DNA of 32,090 bases from Acidisphaera sp. (GTDB lineage: Bacteria; Pseudomonadota; Alphaproteobacteria; Acetobacterales; Acetobacteraceae). This document shows positions 10,066-24,334 of the stretch, in pieces. Each line of letters starts with the position of its first letter. Positions within the stretch are counted from its first letter, which is position 1. The notes under the pieces are model-generated. The model was not told the DNA's origin. It saw nothing but the letters and a program-made list of their open reading frames with translations, and did no database searches. The stretch is taken from positions 1 to 32,090 of the forward strand of contig JAFAYM010000176.1 of assembly GCA_019240395.1 (NCBI GenBank), in the 5' to 3' direction. The translations under genes were made by a program, and so were the position numbers.

Positions 10066-11352
10066 TCAAGCCGCGAGTTCGCGTGCCGCCGAGGCGAAGG
10101 CCTCCACGGTGTGGCTTATATCCGCCTCGTCATGGGCCAGCGAGATGTAGAGCTTGCTCTCGCTCTTGAAGATGCCGCGCTCGCGCAGCAGCGCGTTGAA
10201 CCGCTTGGCGAGCGCCGCGTCGCCGCCGACCGTGTCCCGATAGTTGCTGATCCGGCCAGGGGCGAACACCACGTCGAACATCGGCGGCTCGCCGGGAACC
10301 GCGACCTCGAACCCGGCATCGCGCAGACTGCCGGCGAGCCCGTCGCGGATCGCCTGGCCGGTGGCGAAAATCCGCTCATAGGCACCCGGCCGCTTGAGGA
10401 TCTGCAGGGTCGCCAGGCCGGCGACCGCGGCGACCGGGTTGCCGCTCAGCGTGCCGATCTGCGGCATGAACCGCTCGTCCCCGACGGCGGCGCGATCCAG
10501 ATGCGCCATGATGTCCTCGCGCCCGGCGATCGCCGCCAGCGGGAAGCCGCCGCCGATCACCTTGCCGAGCGAGCAGAGATCCGGAACGACGCCGTAATAG
10601 GCCTGCGCGCCGCCATAGGCGAGGCGGAAGCCGGTGACCACCTCATCGAAGATCAGCGGGATGTCGTATTCCCGGGTGATCTCCCGCAGACCCTGCAGGA
10701 AGCCCGGCTGCGGCGGGATCAGCCGCTGCATCGGCTCGACGATCACGCCGGCCAGCTCGTCGTGATACTCGCGGATGAGGTTTTCCGCCATTTCGAGGTC
10801 GTTGAAGGCGCAGACCAGCATCTCGCTGCGCACGCCGGCCGGAATGCCGGCCGAATCCGGGGCGGCCTGCGGGAAGTTGCCCACCTGCTTCGGCCACAGG
10901 CTCATCAGGCCGTAGTCGCTCATGCCGTGATAGCCGCCCTCGAACTTCAGGATCTTGTCGCGGCGGCGGAAGGCGCGGGCCAGGCGCATGGCGTAGAGAT
11001 CGGCCTCGGTGCCGCTGCTGACGAAGCGGACCTTCTGCGCGCAGGCCACGGCATCGACGATCTCGGCGGCCAGCAGGATCGCCGGCTCGTTGTTGGCGAA
11101 GAACGTGGTGCCGCGCGGCAGCTGTTCCTGCACCGCCGCGACGACCTCGGGATGGGCATGGCCCACCAGCATCGGCCCCGATCCCAGGAGGAAGTCGATA
11201 TATTCGTTGCCGCTGGCATCCCAGACCCGCCCGCCGCGGCCTTCGCGGATGACGGTCGCTACGTCGACATTGCCGAGGCTGCCGGCGGGAAGCACGCGCC
11301 GCGCGGTTTCCGCCAGCGCCAGTTCGGCATCGCTGCGCCGGATGATGGACAT
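10066..11352 (-). CDS. Class III PLP-dependent aminotransferase (glutamate-1-semialdehyde aminomutase-like)
   Basis: A roughly 428-residue fold-type I PLP enzyme resembling HemL and related class III aminotransferases. Visible motifs are VWDASGNEYIDFLLGSGPMLVGHAHP, the phosphate-binding SSGTEAD, GGYHG, the cofactor ring-binding Asp in LIFDEVVTGFR, and the Schiff-base lysine in SLGKVIGGGFPLAA (about Lys264). True HemL or another amino group transfer cannot be decided from sequence; the divergence from HemL and the lone position suggest a catabolic or specialised aminotransferase. The start at 11352 (MSIIRRSDAEL) is preferred, as the in-frame ATG at 11409 adds a 19-residue segment unlike the family. 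It lies downstream of the sterol operon on the same strand but has its own likely promoter. Confidence 0.85.
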   Translation of the reverse strand: MSIIRRSDAELALAETARRVLPAGSLGNVDVATVIREGRGGRVWDASGNEYIDFLLGSGPMLVGHAHPEVVAAVQEQLPRGTTFFANNEPAILLAAEIVDAVACAQKVRFVSSGTEADLYAMRLARAFRRRDKILKFEGGYHGMSDYGLMSLWPKQVGNFPQAAPDSAGIPAGVRSEMLVCAFNDLEMAENLIREYHDELAGVIVEPMQRLIPPQPGFLQGLREITREYDIPLIFDEVVTGFRLAYGGAQAYYGVVPDLCSLGKVIGGGFPLAAIAGREDIMAHLDRAAVGDERFMPQIGTLSGNPVAAVAGLATLQILKRPGAYERIFATGQAIRDGLAGSLRDAGFEVAVPGEPPMFDVVFAPGRISNYRDTVGGDAALAKRFNALLRERGIFKSESKLYISLAHDEADISHTVEAFASAARELAA

Positions 11353-11469
11353 GAGGCTGATCCCTTTCCCGTAAGCTCGATACGAGCTTGCCACCGCCCA
11401 GCTTGCCATAGCGGCGTGGTGGAGGGGGTTTCCCCCGAACCGGCGTTCCCGGGCGATCCCAGCTGGTTC

Positions 11470-11545: not shown

Positions 11546-13024
11546 TCACCACCTCGATTTCCTCACGAACTCGATTTCGTAGGGCTCGGGCTGCAGCGTG
11601 ACCGAGCCGCGATAGTCGTTATGCCCGGGACGGCCGGAACCGATCCGGCGCAACCGGTAGCGCCCGAGCAGCTGCTTGAGAAAGACGGTGATGTGCAGCT
11701 CGGCGAAGACCCTGCCCGTGCACGCCATCTGGCCGAGTGAGAACCCGGCCCAGCGTCCGCCGAGAGCCGCTTCGGGAGGGGCGAAGCGAGCAGGGTCGAA
11801 CCGCTCGGGATCGGCGTAGCTGGCGGGGTTGCGGTGCAGCGTGTCCAGCTGCACGAAGCTGTACGTGCCCTTGGGCACGAAGTAGCCGCCGTAGCGCCGG
11901 GATTGCGCCAGCAGCCGGGTGATGGCCGCAGCCTGCGGATGGAGGCGCAGGCATTCCCGGATCGCCATCGCCGTCACGGCCGGGGCGCGCGGCACGGCGA
12001 GCGGATCGGCGCCGGCCAGCTCGTCACCGAGCTGGTCCTGCAGCTCGGGATGCCCCGCCAGCTCATCGAGCAGGAACAGAATGGTGCCTCCGGTCGAGCC
12101 GGTGGAGGGCAGCATCACCGTGAACAGATGCTGGTAGAAAGCGAGCGACCCGAGCAGCCTCGCCCGTTCTTCCCCGCAGCTCGCCAGGCGCCGGCGATCC
12201 CAGCCGAGCGCGTCGAGCGATTCCGCGACGAACCGGAGTTGATCCTCGCCGACATCGCCGCCGCCCAGGATGGCATCCAGGCTGCGCGCGAGCAGCCCGG
12301 CGTAGCTCTTCTCGAGCGTCTTCACCCGCCGGCGCGCGTGCAGGAAGAACCAGCTGTCGAACAGCAGCGCGCTGAGCAGGCTGCCCACGTCGAAATACCG
12401 CGCCAGCGTGTCCCGCGTCTCCGACGGGGTCGGTTCCACGCCCATCCAGCAGCGCAGCGAGACATGCTGCACGGTGGCCAGGATCTCCGTGTTGAGATCG
12501 AAACGCCGCACCGCATCCTGCCCGCGCGGGATCGATACCATGCGTTCGATCGCCGGGGTCCAGATCTCCGTCATCCCAGCGGCATGGCGGCGGAGCATGT
12601 CGGGTGCGAGGTGGCGCGCGATCAGACGCTGGCGCTCGGCATGCACGGGATCGTCGCCGGACGTGCAGAACACCGCCTGCTCGCCGAACACCAGCGGTGG
12701 TCCGGTCATCGGCGCGTAGCCGCGCTGCCGGTCCTGCGTCAGCGTGAGCAGCGCCACCTCGGGATCGGCGACCAGCAGGAAGCGTCGGCCGAGCACCGGC
12801 GGCCCGAAACGCAGCAGGACCAACGGTCCGTAAGCCTGCACGCAGCGCCGGTGGAAAGCGACGAAGCCTTCCGTCCGGATGTCGTGCAGGTGGCCGAGCC
12901 AGCGGTGGCGGATCGGCGGCGATGGCGGCAGCCGCTCGCCGCGCACGGAAAGCGCGTCCTGCGCCCAGTTGGCGAGCGCCCCGGCGAGCAGCCGGCCGGC
13001 TCCGGTCACCGCAGCAACGGCCAT
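11546..13024 (-). CDS. Cytochrome P450, last gene of the sterol operon
   Basis: A 492-residue P450. The heme-ligand motif FxxGxxxCxG is present as FSLGQMACTG (Cys about 435), the K-helix ExxR as ECLRLHP (Glu about 357), and the PERF motif as DPERFDPARF. The I-helix region reads LPSTGSTGGT at about 305-315, without the usual AGxxTT and without the AGxHTS of CYP51 sterol 14-demethylases. The N-terminus is mildly hydrophobic (VTGAGRLLAGALANWAQDAL) and may associate with membrane. Its ATG directly follows the stop of the flavoprotein gene (TAGATG), so it is the end of the sterol operon. It probably oxidises the sterol nucleus or side chain. Whether it replaces CYP51 cannot be told here. Confidence 0.93.
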   Translation of the reverse strand: MAVAAVTGAGRLLAGALANWAQDALSVRGERLPPSPPIRHRWLGHLHDIRTEGFVAFHRRCVQAYGPLVLLRFGPPVLGRRFLLVADPEVALLTLTQDRQRGYAPMTGPPLVFGEQAVFCTSGDDPVHAERQRLIARHLAPDMLRRHAAGMTEIWTPAIERMVSIPRGQDAVRRFDLNTEILATVQHVSLRCWMGVEPTPSETRDTLARYFDVGSLLSALLFDSWFFLHARRRVKTLEKSYAGLLARSLDAILGGGDVGEDQLRFVAESLDALGWDRRRLASCGEERARLLGSLAFYQHLFTVMLPSTGSTGGTILFLLDELAGHPELQDQLGDELAGADPLAVPRAPAVTAMAIRECLRLHPQAAAITRLLAQSRRYGGYFVPKGTYSFVQLDTLHRNPASYADPERFDPARFAPPEAALGGRWAGFSLGQMACTGRVFAELHITVFLKQLLGRYRLRRIGSGRPGHNDYRGSVTLQPEPYEIEFVRKSRW

Positions 13025-14287
13025 CTATCCCGTCGATTGCTGGAGCGCTGCCGGCCGCAGCGCCAGGCGGCCCAGCGCTGCGAGCACCGGCAGTGCCAGG
13101 CCGGGCTTGAGGAAGTCGAGCTTGGGCCGCGCGCCGGTCATCACCTCGGCCCATTTCGCCAGCAGCGGCGCGCCATCCCGGCGCAGCGCGAGGGCACCCG
13201 CGTCGAGCAGCCCCGGACGCGCGCTGCACAGCCTGGCGATGCGGGCGCTCCAGGCGAAATCGTTGCCGAAGGCGCGGCGCCAGCGCCGGTGGTAGCGGCT
13301 CAGTCGGGCGGCCCTGAAATCATCCTCGGCAAGGCATTCGACGAGCGTGGCCGCGGCGATCTCGGCGGCGTCCATGCCGTACTGGATGCCCTCTCCGGTC
13401 AGTGGATCGATCTGTCCCGCGGCGTCGCCCAGGATCAGCAGCCGCTCGCCGTAGCTGCGGGGAATACCGCCGAGGCGCAGCGGCGCGCCGCGCATGGCGC
13501 CGATCGCCGCCCGCGCGCCGATCGCACGGCTGACGAACGGGTCCTCCCGCATCACCCGATCATGGGTGCGCCGCAGATCGTGCACGGTCAGCTGGCCGCC
13601 GGGAATCAGATAGAGGCAGAAATTGAGTTGGCCGCCCGCCTCCCGGAACAGCGCGCAGTAGCCGGGCAGCAGATCGCGCGGATAGAAGGCGACGCCGTCG
13701 TGCGGAAAATCACTGCTGCTTGCGTCGATATAGGCGCGGCTGCACACCGCCTCCGGCGCGCCTCCGACGATGCCGAGGCGCCGCGCCAGCCGGGACAGCG
13801 CGCCGTCGGCGGCGACCAGCACGCGCGCCCGGCAGCTTGCGCCGCGCCGCGCGTCGATCGTCCACAGCCCGGCTTCGCCATCGAGCGTCGCGTCCACCGC
13901 CTCGAAGCGCTCGATCAGCGCTGCGCCGGCTTCGGCCGCGGCGCGGGCGATGCGCTGATCGAGGTGGACGCGCCTGACGGCGATGACCGGCGAGGAGGCG
14001 ATGTGTTCCACCGAGTTGCCGATCGCCACCACGCCGCCCGGGCTGACCATCCCGCCGATCGCGGCGGCATGCGCCTCGCCGTTGTCGAAAATCTGCTGCA
14101 GCACGCCCATGCGTGACAGATGCAGCTGGGCGCGGCTGCACACCGCATCCCCGCAGATCTTGTCGCGCGGGAAGGCGTGCTTCTCCAGCAGCGCCACCCG
14201 CACGCCGGCGCGCGCCAGATACCAGGCGCAGGTCGCACCGGCCGGACCGGCGCCGACGATCGCGACATCGTAAATGCACGCGGTCAC
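13025..14287 (-). CDS. Geranylgeranyl-reductase-family FAD-dependent oxidoreductase
   Basis: A 420-residue flavoprotein with the FAD-binding DVAIVGAGPAGATCAWYLARAG start (GxGxxG at about 12-17), the CGDAVC signature after FPRDKI, VAADGALSRLARRL, and the second FAD motif LILGDAAGQIDPLTGEGIQYG (Asp about 288). This is the geranylgeranyl reductase family, whose members reduce or oxidise isoprenoid double bonds; others are halogenases or hydroxylases. In this operon it is a candidate sterol double-bond reductase or oxidase, by inference only. The start is GTG at 14287, overlapping the preceding TGA (GTGA), which implies coupling. A longer open frame upstream lies inside the epoxidase gene in another frame and is not real coding. 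Confidence 0.9.
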   Translation of the reverse strand: MTACIYDVAIVGAGPAGATCAWYLARAGVRVALLEKHAFPRDKICGDAVCSRAQLHLSRMGVLQQIFDNGEAHAAAIGGMVSPGGVVAIGNSVEHIASSPVIAVRRVHLDQRIARAAAEAGAALIERFEAVDATLDGEAGLWTIDARRGASCRARVLVAADGALSRLARRLGIVGGAPEAVCSRAYIDASSSDFPHDGVAFYPRDLLPGYCALFREAGGQLNFCLYLIPGGQLTVHDLRRTHDRVMREDPFVSRAIGARAAIGAMRGAPLRLGGIPRSYGERLLILGDAAGQIDPLTGEGIQYGMDAAEIAAATLVECLAEDDFRAARLSRYHRRWRRAFGNDFAWSARIARLCSARPGLLDAGALALRRDGAPLLAKWAEVMTGARPKLDFLKPGLALPVLAALGRLALRPAALQQSTG

Positions 14288-15600
14288 TGGATGCGGATCG
14301 TGTCGGTCGTCAGGCGCATGATGGGCAGAGCCAGCTTTGCCATCGCGCCGACCTGCCGCGCAAGGCCGGACAGACCGCCCGGCGGTCGGCACAGCCCATG
14401 CAAGGCCACCCAAGCGAGTTCGTGGAGCACCGCGTGCACGCGCGTCTCGGTGCTGGCGATGAGCTGCAACGAGGCGGCGCGACCGCCGGCGCTGCGCATC
14501 CAGTAGCGGAGCAGCCCGTCGCGCAGGAATTCCATGGCGGGTGCGGTCCCGCCCAGCGTGTCGTGCAGCAAAGCGGCGAGCAGCATGCGGGCACGCTGCT
14601 GAGCGCGACGCTCGCGCGCATAGAGGCGCAAGGCGAGGGCCACATCGCCGGAGGCACGGCACAGCGCGTCGCGCAGGCGGAAAGCGTCGGCGACGGCCAT
14701 GCTCATGCCGCTCGCCGTCAGCGGATGACAGCTTCCCGCGGCATCGCCGACCAGCGCCACGCCTCCGCGCACGACCGCAGAAACGGCGACGTGGCGGGCG
14801 GCGAAACCGAGGCCACCCCCGGCAGAGACGGCCGCGCCGAGTGCTTCGCGCAGCGGTGCGGGAAGCATCGCGGTGCATTCGTCCGGTCGGGCGCGGCGGT
14901 CGGGGCCGACCGGCTGCTCGAACAGCACGCGTGCCGCGCCGTCGCCGATCGCATAGGCGAGGACCGGGTGCTTTGCGCCGAGGAACACATGGCCGAGGCC
15001 CGGCGCCGGAAGCGCCTCGCTGCCGATGCGATAGCCGCTGAATCGCGCGCCACCGTGGCGCCGATGGGCGATCCCCGCCATGTCCCGAACCCGCGAGGAC
15101 GCCCCGTCCGCGGCGACGAGCAGCCGGCAGGGGACGGTCTCACGCTGGCCGCCCCGGGCCAAATGGACGGCGCTCCGGCCGGGCGCTCCGTCATCCAACC
15201 CGACCACGCGGCAGCCGCGCGCGACGCTGACACGCTCGATGCGGCCGGCGGCGTCCAGCAGGGTGCGGCGAAGGGTGCCGTGATCGAGCGCCAGCGCCGT
15301 GCTCCGGCCGGCATCGCCGGAGCGATAGAGCAAGTGCATCGGCGGGGTTGGCGACGGCTCGGCGAACACGGCAAAGCCGCGCAGCGGCGCGGCACGGGCA
15401 ATATCGGCCGGCGCCAGCAAGCCGAGTTCGGCCAGGTCGGCGACGCAGGCGGGGTGGATGAATTCGCCGGAGAGACGACGCTCCTCGTGCTGGCCGGGCT
15501 CGACCAGGAGGACGGACCAGCCCAGGGTGGCCAGGCAGGAGGCGGCGGCGCAGCCCGCCACCCCGCCCCCGGCGACGATGACATCGGGATCGCCGCTCAC
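14284..15600 (-). CDS. Squalene epoxidase (squalene monooxygenase)
   Basis: This enzyme converts squalene to 2,3-oxidosqualene, the committed oxygen-requiring step towards sterols. The 438-residue product aligns by eye with eukaryotic SQLE along its length: DVIVAGGGVAGCAAA (FAD GxGxxG), LSGEFIHPACVADLAELGL (compare GEFLQPGG...LGL), LDHGTLRRTLLDAA, VAADGASSRVR, HPVLAYAIGDGAARVLFEQP, and GGVALVGDAAGSCHPLTASGMSMAVAD (compare [20 protein letters not shown]). The C-terminal helical part matches as well (RYWMRSAGG). It starts with GTG, overlapping the TGA of the Coq4-like gene. The adjacent oxidosqualene cyclase makes the assignment much stronger than to a generic flavin monooxygenase. Confidence 0.9.
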   Translation of the reverse strand: MSGDPDVIVAGGGVAGCAAASCLATLGWSVLLVEPGQHEERRLSGEFIHPACVADLAELGLLAPADIARAAPLRGFAVFAEPSPTPPMHLLYRSGDAGRSTALALDHGTLRRTLLDAAGRIERVSVARGCRVVGLDDGAPGRSAVHLARGGQRETVPCRLLVAADGASSRVRDMAGIAHRRHGGARFSGYRIGSEALPAPGLGHVFLGAKHPVLAYAIGDGAARVLFEQPVGPDRRARPDECTAMLPAPLREALGAAVSAGGGLGFAARHVAVSAVVRGGVALVGDAAGSCHPLTASGMSMAVADAFRLRDALCRASGDVALALRLYARERRAQQRARMLLAALLHDTLGGTAPAMEFLRDGLLRYWMRSAGGRAASLQLIASTETRVHAVLHELAWVALHGLCRPPGGLSGLARQVGAMAKLALPIMRLTTDTIRIQ

Positions 15601-16318
15601 CGGTCCGCCATCACCCGATGATACAGGCGGGGCGGCGCCAGGCGCAAAGTCTCGCGCAGCCCGTCGAGCCCGTGCTCGAGGCTGCGTTCCCAGAAGACAT
15701 CCTCGAGCCAGGCGGCGTGCCGGCCGCGGCGATACGCCTCGATGACGGCGGCGCGGACCGGCCGGCCGGGAAACTGCCGGGCCAGCTTGAACATCCAGGT
15801 GAAGGCCAGGAAGCCGCGTCCGGGATGGCGCGTCTGCGCATAACGGAAGCCAGCACGCACAGCTCCCCGAGCTCGTCGGTGCCGTAGCCGATGACGACGT
15901 GCCAGAGATCGTGCAGATCGGTGGCTCGATCGATGAACCATCGCTCGTCCGGCGACATCGGCCGCTCGCCGCCGAGCGCTTCCAGGTCCGCCAGCGCGCG
16001 CAGATCCAGTTTGTTTTCGGTCATGAAATCGGCATAGGCGCGGCCAAGCGTGCCCGTGGGCAGCGCCGCCAGGCGTCCCCGGTCGGCAAGGCTGTCGCGC
16101 GCCGCCGGGCGCTCGCGCAACAGCGCCTGCCCCGCCGGGCTGGCGCGCAGCCGGCAAAACCCGCGCTGGCCGGAGCGGCCTTGCGTCGCATGCAGGAAGA
16201 TCACGCCTTGCGCGACATCCTTGCCGCGGCTCCTGGCGAGCGCGCGCAGCGCGCGGATGGCGATCAGCGGGCGAATGCGATTCCCCCCGAAATTCGGCAC
16301 CGCAATTCCGGCCCTCAT
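15597..16318 (-). pseudogene. Coq4-like gene with an apparent one-base frameshift
   Basis: The gene starts at ATG 16318, overlapping the cyclase stop (ATGA). Its first 156 residues follow the Coq4 family, including the metal motif HDxxHx11E as HDLWH (about 136-140) with Glu152. At about 15848 the frame breaks: frame one gives CVLASVMRR and runs to a stop at 15611. Shifting by one base gives FRYAQTRHPGRGFLAFTWMFKLARQ and a clean Coq4-like C-terminus ending at the TGA at 15597, which overlaps the epoxidase GTG. One missing base (GCTTCC instead of, for instance, GCTTTCC) explains it. Coq4 acts on the ring of ubiquinone precursors in eukaryotes; a role with sterols is unknown. It could be a sequencing error, a true mutation or, less likely, recoding. 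A corrected product would be about 240 residues. Confidence 0.85.
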
Positions 16319-18282
16319 CGCGCGCCCCCGATGCCGCAGGCCCGGGCGCGTGCCAGCGCCCAGGCGGGGAAATACGTGTTGTAGAGCCGGTAATCGAGCA
16401 TCGCCGTGCCGAAGAACACGCCGTTGACAGAGTCCCGCGGCCAGTCGCCGTCGGCAAGCTGCCGCCCGGCCAGCCAGTCGAGGCCGCGTCTCGTCGCCGC
16501 GGAGGGCTCCGCCTCGGCGCGAAGCAACGCGAGCAGCGCCCAGGCGGTCGTGATCACCAGGCTTTCGGGATGCGGCACGTAGCGCCCGGAAAGGCAGCCG
16601 GAGAAATGCTCGCCCCAGCCGCCATCCTCGTTCTGCACCGAGCGCAGCCAGCCCACGGCCTTGCACACCGCACGGTGTTCCGCGCCAAGTCCGACATCGC
16701 GCAAGGCGACGACGGCTAGGCCGGTGGCATAGACGAAATTGATGCCCCAGAAGCCCGGCCACGCGCCGTCCGGACGTTGTCGGGACAGCAGGAAGCGCCG
16801 GCCGCGCCCCATTGCATCGCGGCATTCCGCGGGCGCAATGCTCGGCTCCGTGGTGGCGAGCTGATGCAGCGCCCGGATCGCCGATGCCGTGCACTCGACA
16901 TAGGAGAGTTCGGTCATGCACTGGCCGAACATCTCCGAGGGGTTGAGTCGCGCCAGCATGCGGCCGCCCCGCCGCCGCTCGTAGCTGGCGAAGCCGCCAT
17001 CGGCGTTCTGGCGGTCGAGCAGGAAGCGGACGGCGGCGGCGAGGCGCGCGCGCGGGATGCGATCCGGCCCCGCGATCAGGCCGGGAATCGTCTGGCAGAG
17101 TAGCAGGGCGCTCAGCGCCTCGGCGGTGCAGTCGCTCACCGGCCAGCAATGCGCCGGCGTGCCGAAGCACCAGCCGCCGGCGATTTTCTGCCGGCCTTCG
17201 TCGAGCGTGGCCGGCTCCTCGGTGATCTGCAGCGCAGCCAGCGCAAGATAGCCGCGCCGCATGGCGGAGCGGGTTGCGCCATCAGGGTCGGGTGCCTCGC
17301 CCGCCGCCTGCAGCGCGAAGGCGGTATCCCAGCTTGTCGAGCGGGCGCCGGCATAGCGCAGTCCTTCGGCCTCATCGCGCCAGCACCAGGCCTCCAGCCC
17401 GGCGAGGCTGGCGAGGCAATCCGGGCCGTCGGGCGCGACCGACCAGAGCGCCAGGGTGTTGAGGATGCCGTTCACCGGCGACAGCGCCTGAAAACCGGAG
17501 CCACGCTGTTCGGCACGGATCCGGTCGAGGCAGCGTCCCAGGGCGCGCCGGCGCAGGCGACGCGCGACGGGAAGGCGTAGCCACGCTGGCCCGAGCGCTG
17601 CCAGCGCGTGATAAGCGAGACGCACCGGCCATCCCGGCCGCACATGCAGGTCGCTCGCCGCGACATGGTGACGGGAAGCGGGGCGGTGTGCCGCGAATCG
17701 GGCGAGCTCGGCCTGCAAGCTCTCCCGCATCGGGCCGAGATCAGCGCGAAAGCCGCTCCCCCAGAGGAAAGCCATGCCGAGATAGATATAGCGGGTGTGG
17801 CAGTAAAGCCGGTTCGGCGACAGCGGGAACCAGTTCGGGAGCAGATAGAGCTCGGGCGGACACGGGGGGACGCGAAGCGCGTCGTAGAGCCCGATCAGCG
17901 ACAGCCAGAAGCGGCCCCAGCTCGGCAATCCCGCCAAGCCGTCGGGATGCCTGGCGAGCCAGCCCGCTGCGGGGCCGAGCAGCGGCGAGCCGGCGGGTTC
18001 ACCGAGCAGGCGCGCGGCGACATAGACCAGGACCGTCACGAACAGGTACGAGTGGGATTCCGGATGCAGCCCCCAGCCGCCATCCGGGCGGCGCGTGCGG
18101 GCAAAATGCCGCATGATGAGGCGGCATCGATCCGGGTCGGGCGGCCGGCCGATGATGGCATGCAGGATCGCCACCTGGGCGGTGATCACTGGGCACCAGA
18201 CGACCTCGCCCTCCCAGCTGCCGGTCGCGTCCTGGCGGGCAAGGAGGCGGCGACGGGCGCGTTCCCAAGGGAGCAGGGTCAG
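16315..18282 (-). CDS. Oxidosqualene cyclase (lanosterol/cycloartenol synthase type)
   Basis: This triterpene cyclase folds 2,3-oxidosqualene into a sterol skeleton. The decisive motif is PVSDCTAEALSA (catalytic Asp about 384): VSDCTAE marks oxidosqualene cyclases, whereas squalene-hopene cyclases have DxDD. Other oxidosqualene cyclase features are YVECTASAIRAL (Cys about 464, partner of the catalytic Asp), RLYCHTRYIYLGMAFLWG (His about 162), WDTAFALQA, QW repeats (RQDATGSW, RQRPDGAW, VQNEDGGW), and the C-terminal GVFFGTAMLDYR...YFPAWALAR. The start is uncertain. CTG at 18282, overlapping the methyltransferase TGA, gives about 655 residues and keeps the first QW motif. GTG 18363 would overlap by 85 bases, and GTG 18189 would cut that motif. 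The family call is very secure. Confidence 0.94.
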   Translation of the reverse strand: MTLLPWERARRRLLARQDATGSWEGEVVWCPVITAQVAILHAIIGRPPDPDRCRLIMRHFARTRRPDGGWGLHPESHSYLFVTVLVYVAARLLGEPAGSPLLGPAAGWLARHPDGLAGLPSWGRFWLSLIGLYDALRVPPCPPELYLLPNWFPLSPNRLYCHTRYIYLGMAFLWGSGFRADLGPMRESLQAELARFAAHRPASRHHVAASDLHVRPGWPVRLAYHALAALGPAWLRLPVARRLRRRALGRCLDRIRAEQRGSGFQALSPVNGILNTLALWSVAPDGPDCLASLAGLEAWCWRDEAEGLRYAGARSTSWDTAFALQAAGEAPDPDGATRSAMRRGYLALAALQITEEPATLDEGRQKIAGGWCFGTPAHCWPVSDCTAEALSALLLCQTIPGLIAGPDRIPRARLAAAVRFLLDRQNADGGFASYERRRGGRMLARLNPSEMFGQCMTELSYVECTASAIRALHQLATTEPSIAPAECRDAMGRGRRFLLSRQRPDGAWPGFWGINFVYATGLAVVALRDVGLGAEHRAVCKAVGWLRSVQNEDGGWGEHFSGCLSGRYVPHPESLVITTAWALLALLRAEAEPSAATRRGLDWLAGRQLADGDWPRDSVNGVFFGTAMLDYRLYNTYFPAWALARARACGIGGAR

Positions 18283-19316
18283 GATCGGGGGTTGCGGGCC
18301 AGGATGAAAAAGTCCGGCGTGAACAGGCCCTGCTGTCCGGCCGTGACCAGCGTGCGGCCGCACGCCTCGAGCAGCTGCGCGACCTCGGTCGCGCCGCGCG
18401 GCGCCACGCGCAGCGATTCCAGGACACGCACCGCGATGCGCGTGACATGCCGGCCGATGCCCGAGCTGCGGCGCAGGCTGAACCGCCGCGCTGCGGGGGC
18501 AAGCGGCTCCCACCACGGAATGTCGCCGGCCTTGGCGCGATCCTCGCTGTGCAGCAGCTCGAAACCGGAAGCGGTGATCGCCTGGGTTACCGCCGCCGAG
18601 GTCGACAGGTCGATCAGGCCGTTGCCGATTTCGATCTCCCGCTTGATTGCCTGGTGCGACGGATCGGTCGGGACGAAGTCCGGCGTCAGGCACCATTCGT
18701 AGGTGCCGAAGAGCGCGCCCGGCTTCAACACCCGCCGGATCTCGCGATAGACATCGACCAGGCTCGGCGCGTGCACGGTCGCCTCGATGGCGTAAGCGGC
18801 GTCCATGGCGGCGTCCGGCAGGGGCATGGCCATGAAGTCGCCCCTGATGACCCTACACCGCGCGGCGAGGCCGGCGCGCTCGTTCAGCGTCTCGGCGCGC
18901 GCCACCTGATAGGCGTTGTTGTTGATGCCGGTGATCCGGCAGCCGGCAAAGCGGGCGATCGCGCGCAGCGGCCCGCCGACGCCGCAGCCGACATCGAGCA
19001 CGTGCAGCGATGGGTCGAGCCGCAACCGCAGTGCCATCCAGTGCTCGTGACGCAGGATGGATTGCTCCCGGGTCTCGCCGCGCGCGCGCGGCGCGAAATG
19101 GAAGGATTGGCCCCAGCCGTATTCGAAGAAATCGGTGACGAGGTCGTAATATCGGTTGACCACTTGCGCATAGGCGCGGCGACGGTCCTCCACATCGGCA
19201 TGGGCGTCGCGACGATAGCGGGCGAGGGTCGCCGATACCGCGTCAGCCGACACCGCGCTGCCGGCGAGCCGCGTCAGACCGGGCGCGGCGGCGCCGGGTG
19301 CCCGGTCGGTCTGCAT
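18279..19316 (-). CDS. Sterol 24-C-methyltransferase (Erg6/SMT-like)
   Basis: This SAM-dependent enzyme adds a methyl group at C-24 of a sterol side chain with a delta-24 double bond. The 345-residue protein follows yeast Erg6 closely through its length: VNRYYDLVTDFFEYGWGQSF (about 53-71, sterol-binding region I), HEHW, SAM motif LDVGCGVGGP (107-116), INNNAYQ (131-137), GDFMAMP, YAIEATVHAP (175-184), VLKPGALFGTYEW (196-208), EIEIGNGL, SEDRAKAGDIPWWEPL, and a final LFTPDFFILARNP. Position 64 is Phe where yeast has Tyr81. The ATG at 19316 overlaps the upstream SDR by 43 bases; GTG 19253 is an alternative start without overlap. Sterol methyltransferases are rare in bacteria, and the neighbouring cyclase supports the function. 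Confidence 0.95.
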   Translation of the reverse strand: MQTDRAPGAAAPGLTRLAGSAVSADAVSATLARYRRDAHADVEDRRRAYAQVVNRYYDLVTDFFEYGWGQSFHFAPRARGETREQSILRHEHWMALRLRLDPSLHVLDVGCGVGGPLRAIARFAGCRITGINNNAYQVARAETLNERAGLAARCRVIRGDFMAMPLPDAAMDAAYAIEATVHAPSLVDVYREIRRVLKPGALFGTYEWCLTPDFVPTDPSHQAIKREIEIGNGLIDLSTSAAVTQAITASGFELLHSEDRAKAGDIPWWEPLAPAARRFSLRRSSGIGRHVTRIAVRVLESLRVAPRGATEVAQLLEACGRTLVTAGQQGLFTPDFFILARNPRS

Positions 19317-20344
19317 GGCTTGGGGCTGGAGCTGCGGCGCGGACGCGCGTCGCGGACGATGACGCCGCGATCGACGAAATCCCGATAGGCGTCAGCCACG
19401 GCGGCTTCGATGGAGGTCGGGCGAAAGCCAAGCTCCGTCCGGGCCTTGCTGGTGTCGGCGCGGCGCGCCAGGCGGAGCAGGCGGATGGCGGCCGGCGTCA
19501 GCAGCGGTTCGGCGCGTGGCGCGACGAGCGGGCTGAGCCGGGCAGTGACGCTGGCGGCCACGCGCATCAGTGTCGGCGGCAGCCGGAGCGGCCGGTGCGG
19601 CCGGCCGGTGACGCGCCGGAACATCGCCATCATCTCGTCCATGTTCACGAAGCCCGTGGAGAAGATGTATTTCTGCCCGGGCCGCCCCTTCGCCATCGCC
19701 AGGCGATGGCCGGCGGCGATGTCGCAGGCGGCGACGAATTCGAAGCCGCCCTGGATGTAGGCCGGCAGCCGGCCGTGGGCGAAATCGATCAGCACGCGTC
19801 CCATGCGCGACGGCTTGAAATCGTTCGGTCCGAGAATGGCGGTCGAGGTCGCGATCACCACCGGCAAGCCGTCGGCGCAGGCCTTCAGGCATTCATGTTC
19901 TGCCGCGGCCTTGCTCTGCTCATAGGGGAGATGCCGCTCGAATGGGTTGAACGGCACGGTCTCGTCGCTCGGGATACCGTCCTCGCGCACGCCGACGGCG
20001 CTGAACGAGCTGGTGACGACGACCTTACCGACCCGTGCGGCGCGCGCCGCCTGCAGCAGGATGCGGGTGGCCAGCACGTTGCAGCCAAAGATCTCATCGC
20101 GGCCGCGCTCGCTCGTCGAGACCCGAGCCGCGCAATGATAGACCTGGGTGCAGCCGGCGACGCAAGCGGCGGCGAGGGCGGGATCACGCAAATCGCCCAC
20201 GAGCGTTTCGACGGAGAGGCCGGCGAGGCTCGGTGCCTCCACCGGATCGTGCAGCAAGGCGCGCACCGTCTCGCCTTCGGCAAGCAGGTGGCGCACGAGG
20301 TTGGCACCGAGATGGCCGCCCGCGCCGGTGACGAGGATTGCCAT
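19274..20344 (-). CDS. NAD(P)-dependent extended SDR, SdmB/HpnA/3-beta-HSD-like
   Basis: A 356-residue extended short-chain dehydrogenase. It has the cofactor motif TGAGGHLG (6-13), the catalytic YxxxK as YEQSK (Tyr141, Lys145), SSFSAVG, and STAILGPNDFKPSRMGR. The build recalls HpnA of hopanoid clusters and 3-beta-hydroxysteroid dehydrogenases. In Methylococcus the C-4 demethylation of sterols uses a Rieske oxygenase (SdmA) together with an NAD(P)-dependent SDR (SdmB). The same pairing is present here, with the Rieske gene 12 bases upstream, so oxidative decarboxylation at C-4 is the best inference. The last 25 or so residues are rich in Pro, Arg and Ser and overlap the methyltransferase gene. 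HpnA-like sugar epimerase activity is the main alternative. Confidence 0.88.
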   Translation of the reverse strand: MAILVTGAGGHLGANLVRHLLAEGETVRALLHDPVEAPSLAGLSVETLVGDLRDPALAAACVAGCTQVYHCAARVSTSERGRDEIFGCNVLATRILLQAARAARVGKVVVTSSFSAVGVREDGIPSDETVPFNPFERHLPYEQSKAAAEHECLKACADGLPVVIATSTAILGPNDFKPSRMGRVLIDFAHGRLPAYIQGGFEFVAACDIAAGHRLAMAKGRPGQKYIFSTGFVNMDEMMAMFRRVTGRPHRPLRLPPTLMRVAASVTARLSPLVAPRAEPLLTPAAIRLLRLARRADTSKARTELGFRPTSIEAAVADAYRDFVDRGVIVRDARPRRSSSPKPCRPTGHPAPPRPV

Positions 20345-20356
20345 GTCAGGGGAGCG

Positions 20357-21487
20357 TCACGCGAGCTCGGCCGGCGCCGCCGTGCGCGGCATCGCGCCTT
20401 CGAGATGCCGCCGCCACTCCGCCACGACGAGTTTCTGGAACGCGATCACCGCCGGATTGAGCTCGATCGAGGGGGCGTGCGGCCTGCGCTCATAGGCCTG
20501 CTGCTCGGCTTCCACCATGCCGCCGTCCTGCGCCAGCAGCGGACGGATCATCACGCGACGCGCGGCACGCAACAGCGGCAGCTGCAGCCAGCGCGGCATC
20601 GGCACCCGCAGCAGCGGGATCTGGATGGCGTCGAAATAGAACAGGAAGAAGACGCGCGTGGTTCGCGCATCCATCGGCAGGAAGAAGCACCAATGCTTGA
20701 TGCGGCCGCCGGTGTCCGACCATTGATAGGGATACTCGAAGCACAGCTCCATCCGGTCGACGCGCACGCGGCTGCGGTCGACGAAATGCTTGCTGAAGCG
20801 GCCGTCGCCAACCAGCACGTCATAGGCAAGCCGCACCCGCTGCCCCTCGGTCCGCAGCTCGATCAGCGTGGCATCGGTGAACGGGCGATAGCTGCGGTGC
20901 AGATGCGCGTGGGTGAAATCGCTGACGTTCTCGATGATCATCGAGTGATGCGCGGCCCAGGTGAAGTCGACGGTGATGGCGGCCCAGGGTCGCGCGCCCT
21001 CCACCTCCGGGATCTCCGGCATCGCCGTCGCCTCGGCCAGCGCAGGGTCACCGGGGAACAGCCAGATCAGCCCATACCGCTCGCGCACGGGAAACGCGGC
21101 GAGGCGCACGCGCGGCATCGGCTGGCCGAACAGGGCATGCGGGATTGCTACCAGCCGGCCCGCCGTGTCGTATTGCCAGCCGTGATAGGGGCAGACCAGA
21201 CGGCAGCCCGCCACCTCGCCGAGCGACAGCTTGACCTGGCGGTGGGCGCAGCGGTTCTCGACGGCCCCTATGGTGCCGTCCTGCCCTCGGAACAGGGCGA
21301 TGGAACGCTGCCAGAACCGCGTCTCGATCACCGCGCCGGGGCGCAGAGCGTGACTGTGCTCGACGGCGTACCAGTGATCTGGGTGGAGGCCGGCGGCGCG
21401 CGCCATCTGCCGGCGCGTGCGCGCCCGCTCGAATGCGGGAACCGCCGGATCATCGCCCGGCCTAGGCTCCTGACGCTCGGCATTCAT
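20357..21487 (-). CDS. Rieske non-heme iron oxygenase (SdmA-like), first gene of the sterol operon
   Basis: A 376-residue Rieske oxygenase alpha subunit. The [2Fe-2S] ligands are Cys80 and His82 (CAHRQ) and Cys99 and His102 (CPYHGW). The mononuclear iron region reads ENVSDFTHAHLHRSY, with Asp190 and histidines 193, 195 and 197; the usual pattern has four residues between the iron histidines, and here the spacing is unclear. Rieske enzymes of this type hydroxylate steroids; SdmA performs C-4 methyl oxidation of bacterial sterols. Adjacency to an SdmB-like SDR and the other sterol genes favours that role. No ferredoxin or reductase gene is in the window, so electrons must come from proteins encoded elsewhere. 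The start codon has no obvious ribosome-binding site. The upstream gene stops 18 bases before it. Confidence 0.92.
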   Translation of the reverse strand: MNAERQEPRPGDDPAVPAFERARTRRQMARAAGLHPDHWYAVEHSHALRPGAVIETRFWQRSIALFRGQDGTIGAVENRCAHRQVKLSLGEVAGCRLVCPYHGWQYDTAGRLVAIPHALFGQPMPRVRLAAFPVRERYGLIWLFPGDPALAEATAMPEIPEVEGARPWAAITVDFTWAAHHSMIIENVSDFTHAHLHRSYRPFTDATLIELRTEGQRVRLAYDVLVGDGRFSKHFVDRSRVRVDRMELCFEYPYQWSDTGGRIKHWCFFLPMDARTTRVFFLFYFDAIQIPLLRVPMPRWLQLPLLRAARRVMIRPLLAQDGGMVEAEQQAYERRPHAPSIELNPAVIAFQKLVVAEWRRHLEGAMPRTAAPAELA

Positions 21488-21505: not shown

Positions 21506-24055
21506 TCAGGCGGCGGTGGACGCGCTGCGCGCATCCAGGTCGGCGCGGGCCAGCAGAGTGCCGTCGGCGGAGCGCCGGACTTCCAGCACGCCCGCCCCAG
21601 GCAGCGGCGCCGGTAGCCAGGCGGCAAAACTGTGCCGGCCGCTGCCCAGCCCTGCCGCCTGCAGGTCAAGGCGGTGACGATTGGCGAGCGCCTGCGCGAC
21701 CACCACGCCATCGACCAGGATATCGAGGCAGACCGGCGCTTCCGGATGCAGCGTATCCTGCGCCCAACCCCGCACCTCATGGCCGCTCGCGTTATCGAGG
21801 TAGCCGCGCAGTTCGCCGAGCCCGGGTGCCCGCCGTGTCAGTCCCGCGCGCTCGGCGATGCGCCGGCGGACCGCTTCCAGCGCGTAGCCTGCCTCGAGCC
21901 GCGGCGCGCAGAACAGCGCCGGGCCGGATGGCGCGTCGGGGTAGCGGCTGGCGTAGTCATCGGCATTGTGGAAGATGGCCCGGCTATCGTCGTCGATGAA
22001 GGTTTCCGACGCCGCACCTTCCGCCCAGACCACGTTGTGTTCGGCCAATTCGATGTGGATGTACTCCACGGACTCGACCGCCTCTTCCTGCACGATCGAC
22101 ACGCCGTTGATCAGCAGTCCGGCGGGAACCAGCACGCCGTCGAGATACATCGCGTGATTCGGTGACACCAGAAGGTCGCGGGACGGCACGTTGTCGGCCA
22201 GCGCGCCGGCGCGAATGCGGACCGGCATGATGTGGCGCTTGCCCGCGAGGAAGCGCCCGGCATAGCTGCGCCGGCCAATCCAGCGGATAGGCTCGAACGC
22301 ACCGCCATACGTCGCAACGCGGTCACCGATCGCCAGATCCTCGATGGGAACCTCGCCGCGCTCGGTGCGCATCAGCGTTCCCCGGCAGAAGCAGGGCATG
22401 TCGTTGATCACCGTGCCGCCCATGCCGTCGGAGTGGACGTAGTATTGCGTGGCTCCGGGATTGCTCAGCGTGAGGTCGATCGTCGTGCCGCCGTCGCTGA
22501 TGATGAGCGTGCTGCCGGACAGCGTGGCCGTCGCGCCCGTGCTGAAGGTGAGGCCGCGCAGGTCGATCGCGTCGTTAGTGCCGAAATTGGCGATGGTGTC
22601 GGTAAAGGTGCCGCCGTTAACCGGGGTCGCCGGGGCGTCGATCTGCAACGTCGCGCTGCCGCCGGCGGCAGGCGAGAAGGCGAAGGTGTCGCTGCCCACC
22701 GAGCCGCTGGTCGCGAGCTCCACGGTGCCGGCGCTGATGATGACGCTGCCGCCGCTGAACGTATCCGTGCCGCTGAGCAGCAACGTGCCGCTGCCGGTCT
22801 GTATGATCGTCGCGCTGAGCCCCTGGATGGACCCATACTCGGTCAGCGTGCCGCCGGCCGCCTCGCTGGCCACCAGCGTGCCGCCAGCCAGCTGAAGCGT
22901 GCCGCCGCCGCTCACGACCGTGTTGCTGTCGGCACCCCCGAACGCCACGATCTCGGAGCCGCCATTGCCCACGACGGTGCCGCTCGCACTGCCCCCCGAT
23001 ATAATGTCCAGGGTGCCACCGTTGCCCACCATGGCGCCCCTGGCGCTACCGCCGGAGGAGAGGATCAGTTCCTGGAGTCCTGTCGCGCTCAGAACGGGTC
23101 CCGTGACCGCGGCGCCGCTCGCCAGAATCTCGGTCCCACCCGAGAACGTCGCACCCATGGCGCTCGCACCGCCGACAAGCTCCAGCGCCCCGCCGCTGTA
23201 CACGGTCTCCCCGGCCGCCATGCCGCCGGCGGAGACGATCTCGGTCGCGCCGCTGCTGACGACGATGTTGGCGGCCGTGCCGCCGCTGGCGACGATCAGC
23301 TCCTGCAAAAAGCCGAAAGACAATGTCCTTCCGGTCAGCGCCGCACCTCCCTCCAGGAGCTCGGTGCCCCCAGAGAAGGTGGTGCCCGCATCGGTCTGCC
23401 CGGCGCCGGACAAGGCGAGCACTGCGGTCGAGAAGACAATCTCGGTCCCTCCGTTGCTCACCACCGGATCGACCGACGTGCCGCCCTCTTCGACCAGTGC
23501 GGTGCCGCCACTCAGAACCATGATACCGGAAGCGGTACCCAGAAGCACTTCCGCAGTGCCGCCGCTCTCGACCCGGACGGTGGCGCCGGAAGAGACGGTG
23601 GTGACGCCCTTTCCGTTGAAAAGTACGGTGCCGTAATCGTCGACGCTGCCGCTCGCGGCGACCGTGACGCCAATCGCTGTGCCTCCGCCGAGGACCTGCA
23701 GATTGCCGCCGCTATTCACCGTCGTGGAGCTGACCTGAGCGCCGGACGAGACGACCAGCTCCTGCAGCCCGCCGGCCACGACGGTCTGGCTGGTGAGGGT
23801 TCCGCCGCTCAGCACAACCTCGGTGCCGCCGGAGAAGGTCAAGCTCGCGGTTATGGCACCGTTTTCGAGATCCAGCTCGCCGCTGCTGTTGATCGTGGAG
23901 CTGCTGACGTTGCCGCCGGAGGAGATGTAGAGCGTCCCGCCGGAGTTGACCGTCGTGTCGATCGCCGTGCCGCCTGACAGGACGTATTCAGTGCCGCCAC
24001 TGCCGATCGTGCCGCTGCTGGTCTGGCCGGAACTGACATTGATGGGGGTGCTCAC
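21506..24055 (-). CDS. AIDA-type repeat protein with Hint domain
   Basis: A large 849-residue protein in three parts. Residues of about 5-480 are degenerate repeats of the pattern SGGT..(I/V)..SGGTL, the AIDA-I/hemagglutinin-like beta-helix repeat seen in surface and secreted proteins. From about residue 554 a Hint_2 (hedgehog/intein-like) domain starts with CFCRGT, followed by GEVPIEDLAIGDRVAT, PIRWIGRRSY and LLVSPNHAMYLDG, which may cleave the chain autocatalytically. From about 750 a C-terminal module reads RGYLDNASGHEVRGWAQDT...DILVDGVVVA, a type I link with Rhodospirillales proteins. No signal peptide or beta-barrel is visible. GTG 24055 is chosen because GGAAGGAAG lies nine bases upstream; the frame opens further upstream without coding character. 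Confidence 0.87.
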   Translation of the reverse strand: MSTPINVSSGQTSSGTIGSGGTEYVLSGGTAIDTTVNSGGTLYISSGGNVSSSTINSSGELDLENGAITASLTFSGGTEVVLSGGTLTSQTVVAGGLQELVVSSGAQVSSTTVNSGGNLQVLGGGTAIGVTVAASGSVDDYGTVLFNGKGVTTVSSGATVRVESGGTAEVLLGTASGIMVLSGGTALVEEGGTSVDPVVSNGGTEIVFSTAVLALSGAGQTDAGTTFSGGTELLEGGAALTGRTLSFGFLQELIVASGGTAANIVVSSGATEIVSAGGMAAGETVYSGGALELVGGASAMGATFSGGTEILASGAAVTGPVLSATGLQELILSSGGSARGAMVGNGGTLDIISGGSASGTVVGNGGSEIVAFGGADSNTVVSGGGTLQLAGGTLVASEAAGGTLTEYGSIQGLSATIIQTGSGTLLLSGTDTFSGGSVIISAGTVELATSGSVGSDTFAFSPAAGGSATLQIDAPATPVNGGTFTDTIANFGTNDAIDLRGLTFSTGATATLSGSTLIISDGGTTIDLTLSNPGATQYYVHSDGMGGTVINDMPCFCRGTLMRTERGEVPIEDLAIGDRVATYGGAFEPIRWIGRRSYAGRFLAGKRHIMPVRIRAGALADNVPSRDLLVSPNHAMYLDGVLVPAGLLINGVSIVQEEAVESVEYIHIELAEHNVVWAEGAASETFIDDDSRAIFHNADDYASRYPDAPSGPALFCAPRLEAGYALEAVRRRIAERAGLTRRAPGLGELRGYLDNASGHEVRGWAQDTLHPEAPVCLDILVDGVVVAQALANRHRLDLQAAGLGSGRHSFAAWLPAPLPGAGVLEVRRSADGTLLARADLDARSASTAA
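22850..24040 (-). repeat. Degenerate tandem repeats inside the AIDA/Hint gene
   Basis: The 5' two fifths of this gene consist of many imperfect units of about 18-20 codons built round SGGT or SSGG. On the plus strand the units appear as recurring gtgccgccgct and ccgccgctg patterns. Units vary in length and sequence, so recent unit expansion is not evident. A longer-period subrepeat is visible at protein level: the phrase LQEL(I/V)(V/L)SSG or close variants recurs three times (LQELVVSSG, LQELIVASG, LQELILSSG). Confidence 0.75.
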
Positions 24056-24064
24056 GGCGAAGGG

Positions 24065-24073
24065 CTTCCTTCC
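24065..24073 (-). promoter_or_regulatory. Strong ribosome-binding site that sets the GTG start of the AIDA/Hint gene
   Basis: The minus strand reads GGAAGGAAG, nine bases before GTG 24055. It decides for this GTG over upstream in-frame codons, whose translation (with runs such as RRLDWTSSREG) lacks the repeat composition. The 279-base gap to the adenylate-forming gene also holds a TATAAC box at 24247-24242 without a good -35 box; it could be part of a promoter. Confidence 0.5.
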
Positions 24074-24334
24074 AGGCGGTTCGCTCGTTTCGGGAAGACG
24101 CGTCGAAACACATCCCTCACGACTGCTGGTCCAATCCAGCCGGCGAGAGCGGTGTGGCGCGCGCTTGATGGGATAGGCAGCCGGACATGAGCTTGTCTGT
24201 TCGTTCCTTAGGCCCGGCGACCGCCATTCCAACTGTCATAGGTTATACGACGCCCCGATCGCTGGGAACAGACCGCGTCTCGCAAGCCGCGGTGGAAAGC
24301 AGAAAAGCGCGCTGCTCTCCGGCGCTTCCGGCGA

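Follow-up and report, generated by a model that had tools for sequence, protein, structure and literature searches.

The window, as we call the whole stretch of 32,090 nucleotides from an Acidisphaera sp. contig (Acetobacteraceae), carries on its minus strand an operon in the order SdmA, SdmB, sterol methyltransferase (SMT), oxidosqualene cyclase (OSC), Coq4-like protein, squalene epoxidase, GGR-like reductase and cytochrome P450 (Table 1). An earlier note on this DNA had placed a P450 of a sterol operon here, and both parts of that claim hold: the open reading frame is confirmed, on the minus strand, and SdmA, SdmB, SMT, OSC and squalene epoxidase are encoded alongside it. The plus-strand frame 1 of the same interval is interrupted by a stop and is not the P450 reading frame. 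The SdmA, SdmB and OSC proteins score strongly with their NCBIfam models, yet below the curated cut-offs, so these names are given by similarity. The cyclase has the DCTA motif and the profile of an OSC rather than of a hopene cyclase: it scores 757.5 bits with TIGR03463 (under the curated cut-off of 851) versus 215.4 bits with the hopene cyclase model, and among PDB entries human lanosterol synthase matches it best. A hopanoid operon was rejected as an identification, since the cyclase is of the OSC type and a separate hopene cyclase lies on contig C80. Sterol clusters that include methyltransferase and SdmA/B genes have been described in bacteria (PMC10070321).

Two features adjoin the upstream end of the operon: a Hint-domain protein with AIDA/PATR-type repeats, encoded immediately upstream of SdmA, and an AMP-binding enzyme beyond it, so that the Hint-domain protein sits between SdmA and the AMP-binding enzyme. 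Within the operon, the Coq4-like gene shows an apparent frame shift, where its N-terminal two thirds and the rest match the copies of a related genome (Rhodopila, below) in different frames; this is either a sequencing error or a real lesion.

Table 1. Positions of the operon genes, of the motifs in the P450, and of neighbouring and comparison features (comparison loci are numbered within their own stretches).
Feature	Position	Strand	Basis or remark
SdmA-like Rieske C-4 methylsterol oxygenase	20357-21487	minus	NF052579, E 1e-115, 386.5 bits, under curated cut-off 600
SdmB-like C-4 demethylation dehydrogenase	19274-20344	minus	NF052578, E 2e-88, 297.3 bits, under curated cut-off 600
Sterol methyltransferase-like protein	18279-19316	minus	Sterol_MT_C
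Oxidosqualene cyclase, lanosterol-synthase-like, start approximate	16315-18363	minus	VSDCTAEA motif, TIGR03463
Coq4-like protein, HDxxH-x10-E motif	15600-16318	minus	Pfam Coq4
Apparent frame shift in Coq4-like gene	near 15845-15851		
Squalene epoxidase-like FAD monooxygenase	14284-15600	minus	Pfam SE PF08491, E 1.2e-16
GGR-family FAD reductase-like protein, start approximate	13025-14287	minus	TIGR02032, 161.4 bits, cut-off 158.8
Cytochrome P450, 492 aa	13024-11546	minus	ATG start; PF00067; AlphaFold model
I-helix motif LPSTGSTGGT, P450 residues 305-314	12083-12112	minus	alignments; kept in Rhodopila homologue
ExxR motif ECLR, P450 residues 357-360	11945-11956	minus	
Heme-binding loop GFSLGQMACTG, P450 residues 427-437, with Cys435	11714-11746	minus	
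Class-III aminotransferase	10066-11409	minus	akin to glutamate-1-semialdehyde aminomutase, below cut-offs
Hint-domain protein with AIDA/PATR-type repeats	21506-24232	minus	
AMP-binding enzyme	24335-25786		
Rhodopila GGR-like gene split over two frames	L048:6116-7413		
Rhodopila AMP-binding enzyme upstream of SdmA	L169:4346-5962	minus	
Fusion-like squalene epoxidase-OSC ORF	L044:5956-9471		
Three adjacent sterol methyltransferase homologues	L043:15240-18699	minus	
P450 of separate MAG clade	L073:12611-14104		
P450 of separate MAG clade	L096:5228-6724	minus	
P450 of separate MAG clade	L119:1954-3453		
P450 of separate MAG clade	L086:1957-3426		
P450 of separate MAG clade	L105:16426-17877	minus	
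P450 of separate MAG clade	L102:456-1940	minus	
P450 of separate MAG clade	L075:6-1472		

Membership of the protein in the P450 superfamily is clear from its Pfam domain (PF00067 covers residues 34-486, E 2.8e-34), its cysteine ligand loop, its ExxR motif and its fold, which was modelled by AlphaFold2 from a 55-row alignment with a mean pLDDT of 86.5 and a pTM of 0.91. The Cys ligand and the ExxR motif are intact (Cys435; ECLR, residues 357-360), just as the earlier note had said. The ATG of the gene abuts the TAG stop of the GGR-like gene, and the two proteins are probably co-translated. In the genome as a whole (4.52 Mb in 303 contigs, 97.85% complete, 3.78% contamination) this P450 is the sole PF00067 match detected.

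The one close relative of the cassette was found in a Rhodopila sp. MAG, also of the Acetobacteraceae, at a locus (L048) that encodes a P450 63% identical to that of the window. The gene order at this locus, OSC-Coq4-like-SQE-GGR-P450 (SQE, squalene epoxidase), is the order of the window, with identities of 67% for the OSC, 51% for the SQE and 70-74% for the GGR-like protein; there are two Coq4-like copies, and the GGR-like and P450 genes are 2 bp apart. On another contig of the same genome, SdmA (73%), SdmB (69%) and SMT (59%) occur in the order of the window. The differences between the two P450 genes are distributed 136/118/230 over the three codon positions, highest at the third, as expected under purifying selection. 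The Rhodopila genome gives 11 P450 matches in all. Its GGR-like gene is split over two frames, by a sequencing error or a real lesion. An AMP-binding enzyme is located directly upstream of its SdmA, and no blast match at E≤1e-8 was obtained between this enzyme and the AMP-binding enzyme of the window. The HemL-like aminotransferase was considered as a further cassette member and rejected: it lies 136 bp downstream of the P450, and no homologue of it was found in the Rhodopila stretch.

The I-helix of the P450 departs from the usual sequence. In alignments with PDB entries and with the P450s of related loci, the columns that read A-G-x-[D/E/H]-T-[T/S] in other P450s read P-S-T-G-S-T here. Gly309 occupies the column of Asp/Glu in P450s and of His in CYP51; Ser310 replaces the usual conserved Thr and is followed by Thr311, so the acid is lost and a hydroxyl is kept. 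The earlier note had described the protein as lacking the acid-alcohol pair altogether. The loss of the acid stands, but the alcohol is lost only in part, the Ser310 hydroxyl being still present, and CYP51s themselves have His at this position, not an acid. In the AlphaFold model, residues 295-323 form one long helix, with mean pLDDT values for successive ten-residue blocks of 75 (291-300), 89 (301-310), 97 (311-320) and 98 (321-330).

The replacement of AGxHTS by LPSTGSTGGT was confirmed in the window and again in the Rhodopila homologue, which reads LPSMGSTGGT. Because the motif is kept in a second genome, a sequencing slip was rejected as its explanation. The two P450s are identical at 21 of 22 residues over 297-318, a stretch picked by eye, and at 306 of 485 overall. 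Conservation is not unique to the motif, however, residues 31-80 being identical at 46 of 50. Among the 100 rows of our P450 alignment, Gly-Ser at these two columns is confined to the window P450 and the Rhodopila homologue (three rows, the homologue being present twice, as L048 and L156), and nine further rows deviate from [D/E/H]-[T/S] there in other ways.

Is this protein nevertheless a CYP51, or a member of another known family? It resembles the CYP51s of bacterial sterol operons in its fold and in being encoded with SdmA, SdmB, SMT, squalene epoxidase and OSC. It differs from them in both signature regions: AGx[H]T[S] is replaced by PSTGST, and the BC-region string FTVPxFGxGVAYD, which is present in most CYP51s of the OSC loci, is replaced by GYAPMTGPPLVFGEQAVFCT. 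The closest CYP51 shares 31.9% identity with it (144 of 451 aligned residues, global alignment), and the closest of 99 P450s of OSC loci, the Rhodopila gene left aside, shares 32.6%; only that gene exceeds 33%. A CYP family is defined by at least 40% identity. That level is not reached with any CYP51 compared, nor with any of the 99 locus P450s, and the PDB sequence matches are weak.

A quick maximum-likelihood tree unites 54 CYP51s in a clade supported by an SH-aLRT of 100, and the window/Rhodopila pair falls outside this clade on a branch of length 3.17, a placement for which the tool flags long branches. An AU test on a careful 60-row tree did not reject a clade of the pair with 20 CYP51s (22 rows versus 38, p 0.303), and a remote common ancestry of the pair with the CYP51s may exist. 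The same test would be consistent with an extremely diverged true CYP51 that has lost its signatures and kept standard 14-demethylation, as would the closeness of the best CYP51 identity to the best for any other P450. We regard this as highly improbable: the CYP51 clade excludes the pair in the quick tree, both signature regions are missing, CYP51s of several phyla in the OSC loci hold on to the motif, and neither of the known C-14 reductases was found in the own or the Rhodopila genome (see below). Judged by its sequence, then, the P450 is not a CYP51.

The wider searches returned no closer relative. Viral contigs scanned with the P450 gave none, and tblastn against plasmids gave distant P450s only (293 records, all below 60% identity, the 15 matches listed being at 23-27%). 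Of the 395 genomes in the order sample, 128, our own included, match the P450 at E≤1e-10, the best non-self match being 37% over 186 residues; among the matches listed, all genomes from the window's order share the family code of the own genome, in keeping with Acetobacteraceae. In the class sample, a two-row P450 profile at E≤1e-60 matched the own genome alone (1 of 385). Six NCBIfam P450 models matched, all far under their cut-offs. The best PDB sequence matches are CYP170A1 and CYP184A1, at no more than 70.6 bits, with CYP170A1 aligning over the C-terminal part (about residues 287-481); both carry Glu and Thr at the I-helix, unlike the Gly309 and Ser310 of the window P450. With these two, and with CYP11A1, which ranks high by fold, the whole P450 fold is shared at about 20-22% identity by structure. 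The searches made thus turned up no CYP51, and no P450 from an unrelated pathway, of high identity, and the suggestion in the earlier note of a new P450 family gains support from this, from the lack of a detected separate CYP51 in the genome and from the sole close relative being a homologue in an equivalent cassette. The protein apparently represents a new family dedicated to the sterol pathway of Acetobacteraceae.

Structure comparison gave high Foldseek ranks to CYP184A1, CYP11A1, CYP3A4, CYP170A1 and CYP51, while VIA-align scored CYP4B1 best (Z 36.1), then CYP102A1 (up to 35.7), and gave M. capsulatus CYP51 a Z of 34.6. These are generic P450 matches, and the fold therefore singles out no family. 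CYP4B1 and CYP102A1 are fatty-acid or alkane hydroxylases, as might be expected if the P450 acted outside the sterol pathway, for example on fatty acids or xenobiotics, and stood in the operon by accident. We find this very unlikely, since the gene directly adjoins the GGR-like gene and keeps the same order after the OSC in the second genome.

The distribution of CYP51 and its partner enzymes also bears on the question. The CYP51 product has a Δ14 double bond, the target of the canonical C-14 reductase; in methanotrophs and some other bacteria, an NTF2-fold protein, 8,14-Bsr, is described as performing the Δ14 reduction (PMC13277303). We scanned a genome collection with an OSC alignment and obtained 221 stretches with a relative, of which 80 were kept and 141 stand outside the counts; many flanks are cut, so a locus without CYP51 does not equal a genome without CYP51. 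A P450 with a CYP51-type motif (AG[QH]HTS, GGQHTS or AGHRTT) occurs in 51 of the 80 loci and an ERG24 homologue in 44; both occur together in 42, CYP51 without ERG24 in nine, and ERG24 without CYP51 in two, and 21 loci have no P450 ORF in the stretch examined. SdmA is present in 48 loci, four of which (L049, L051, L053, L097) have no CYP51 in the stretch. In the class sample, 7 of 385 genomes, including our own, have an OSC match at E≤1e-120. Five of the six others offer operon-length stretches, each of which encodes a CYP51 (FAGQHTS) beside an ERG4/ERG24-family reductase; the sixth (G756) has a partial OSC on a short contig.

Whole-genome probing with CYP51 covered the own genome and the Rhodopila genome. 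In the former, the earlier note's question of a separate CYP51 is answered by a single match of 65.4 bits, which is the P450 itself. In the latter, eight places with 26-30% identity matched, none scoring above 87.5 bits, and no CYP51 was found; for reference, 56 CYP51-motif ORFs of the OSC loci score at least 324 bits. An ERG24-type C-14 reductase was likewise found in neither of these genomes, but in five of the seven searched, namely all five with CYP51 operons. A probe for 8,14-Bsr matched one of five genomes (G776, a Methylococcaceae control) and gave nothing in G000 (the own genome), G775, G458 and G777, with the own and Rhodopila genomes both negative. This probe was an NTF2-like gene near CYP51 and OSC in locus L057, picked by its position and the fold class given in PMC13277303 rather than by accession; its sole Pfam match, SnoaL-like, is below threshold. 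Both genomes are fragmented and a CYP51 in an assembly gap is possible, but it would need to have been missed twice. Unlike the CYP51 operons, then, the window has no detected ERG24 or 8,14-Bsr partner, and its P450 neighbours a GGR-like and a Coq4-like gene.

We consider it a little better than an even bet that the P450 belongs to a new family that tailors a sterol keeping its 14α-methyl group, and that it does not do the job of CYP51. The operon would epoxidise squalene and cyclise it to a lanosterol-type sterol, SdmA and SdmB would oxidise C-4 methyl groups, SMT would alkylate C-24, and the P450 would then hydroxylate or further oxidise the sterol nucleus or side chain. In lanosterol-producing E. 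coli, SdmA/B homologues from Calothrix remove both C-4 methyls and those from M. capsulatus remove one (PMC10202945). Since these homologues act on lanosterol, C-14 demethylation need not come first, and a C-4 demethylated, 14-methylated sterol is chemically possible without CYP51. This activity, together with the undetected C-14 reductases in both genomes, favours tailoring over 14-demethylation; we infer the retained 14-methyl group from absences. Several observations count on the other side. Enhygromyxa salina demethylates C-14 before C-4, and its SdmAB alone fail on lanosterol (PMC10202945). The P450 occupies the operon place where many others have CYP51, and sterol enzymes (CYP11A1, CYP51) are among the P450s that rank high by fold, as are unrelated ones. 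Finally, an unrecognised C-14 reductase, perhaps the GGR-like protein, would allow 14-demethylation.

CYP51 is the only enzyme known to remove the sterol 14α-methyl group. A non-orthologous replacement of CYP51, in which this P450 strips the methyl group by a different route, is nonetheless conceivable, and the neighbouring genes suggest one such route: oxidation to the acid, loss of the carboxylate through a Coq4-like decarboxylase and reduction of the new double bond by the GGR-like protein. A Coq4-like match, a GGR-like protein above 100 bits and a P450 of this kind are combined elsewhere only in the Rhodopila locus (among the 80 OSC loci kept, many with cut flanks), and a CYP51-type P450 is what most of these loci have. 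Oxidative decarboxylase activity has been reported for human COQ4 (PMC11495197), and a GGR-family protein, Bsr, is the sterol C-24 reductase of the myxobacterium Sandaracinus amylolyticus, where it reduces a C=C bond (PMC12004948). The GGR-family flavoprotein of the window resembles Bsr in belonging to a sterol cluster and in having the KICGD cysteine stretch. It departs from it in that the YxWxFP motif described for Bsr (PMC12004948) is missing from the window protein and from both pieces of the Rhodopila protein, the closest strings by eye being YCALFR and YCAVFR. Against the replacement also stand the apparent frame shift in the Coq4-like gene of the window, the absence of Coq4 among the matches listed for the literature on sterol biosynthesis and OSC gene clusters, and an SdmA/B pathway that has no need of a 14-demethylation step. 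On balance we think a replacement of CYP51 possible but doubtful, and the specific scheme in which P450, Coq4-like and GGR-like proteins together remove the 14α-methyl group independently of CYP51, through carboxylate, decarboxylation and reduction, clearly improbable.

The altered I-helix is compatible with the tailoring of a 14-methylated sterol by ordinary P450 chemistry. Ser310 probably serves as the alcohol: with Thr311 perhaps assisting, it would act in the proton relay, where water or a substrate hydroxyl would stand in for the acid lost at 309. CYP107A1 (P450eryF) likewise departs from the usual I-helix proton-relay residues, in a different manner: there Thr is replaced by Ala, and a substrate OH is probably the proton donor (PMC10741444), whereas in the window P450 the acid becomes Gly and the Thr becomes Ser. 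Mutants of the conserved Thr lose 78-95% of hydroxylation in P450cam and 85% in P450BM-3, not all of it (PMC12332404). Because CYP107A1 works without the Thr and such mutants keep some activity, the loss of the acid at 309 alone need not block catalysis. The unusual oxygen activation proposed in the earlier note is accordingly less compelling than claimed, an alcohol being retained by Ser310 at the catalytic position. For human CYP51A1, Compound 0 chemistry is described as the dominant mode of deformylation (PMC12332404); such a step would by inference need no acid, so the I-helix alone cannot exclude a demethylase. The literature on I-helix variants and on C-14 demethylation without CYP51 provided background only.

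How bacteria make sterols matters both for the origin of sterols and for the interpretation of sterane biomarkers. Going by its genes, Acetobacteraceae appear to have a sterol cassette with functions for C-4 demethylation and side-chain methylation; a literature search pairing this family with oxidosqualene cyclase found no paper, and the alphaproteobacteria investigated in PMC12583986 are said there not to produce sterols. As these genes occur with no detected CYP51, unusual sterols are predicted, perhaps 4-desmethyl, 24-alkyl and 14-methylated, and such products should be recognisable by GC-MS. Should the P450 instead turn out to take the place of CYP51, it would represent an independent solution to a step for which CYP51 is considered necessary, and would offer a natural contrast for judging what the I-helix acid/His contributes to deformylation.

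Three further observations came from the OSC loci. In alphaproteobacterial operons (L041, L042, L043, L044 and L045), a single fusion-like ORF without interruption covers both squalene epoxidase and OSC; all five single ORFs are matched by both queries, and Pfam finds SE and both cyclase domains in that of L044, while the window has separate genes. Beside the sterol operon of L043 are three adjacent sterol methyltransferase homologues, 42-45% identical to the SMT of the window. In uncultured MAGs, P450s of a separate, unrelated clade (seven rows, SH-aLRT 100 in the quick tree) are encoded near OSC genes; their I-helix lacks both the acid/His and the Thr, as in FQSIYL-GD, and the Pfam p450 domain was matched in both of the members tested.
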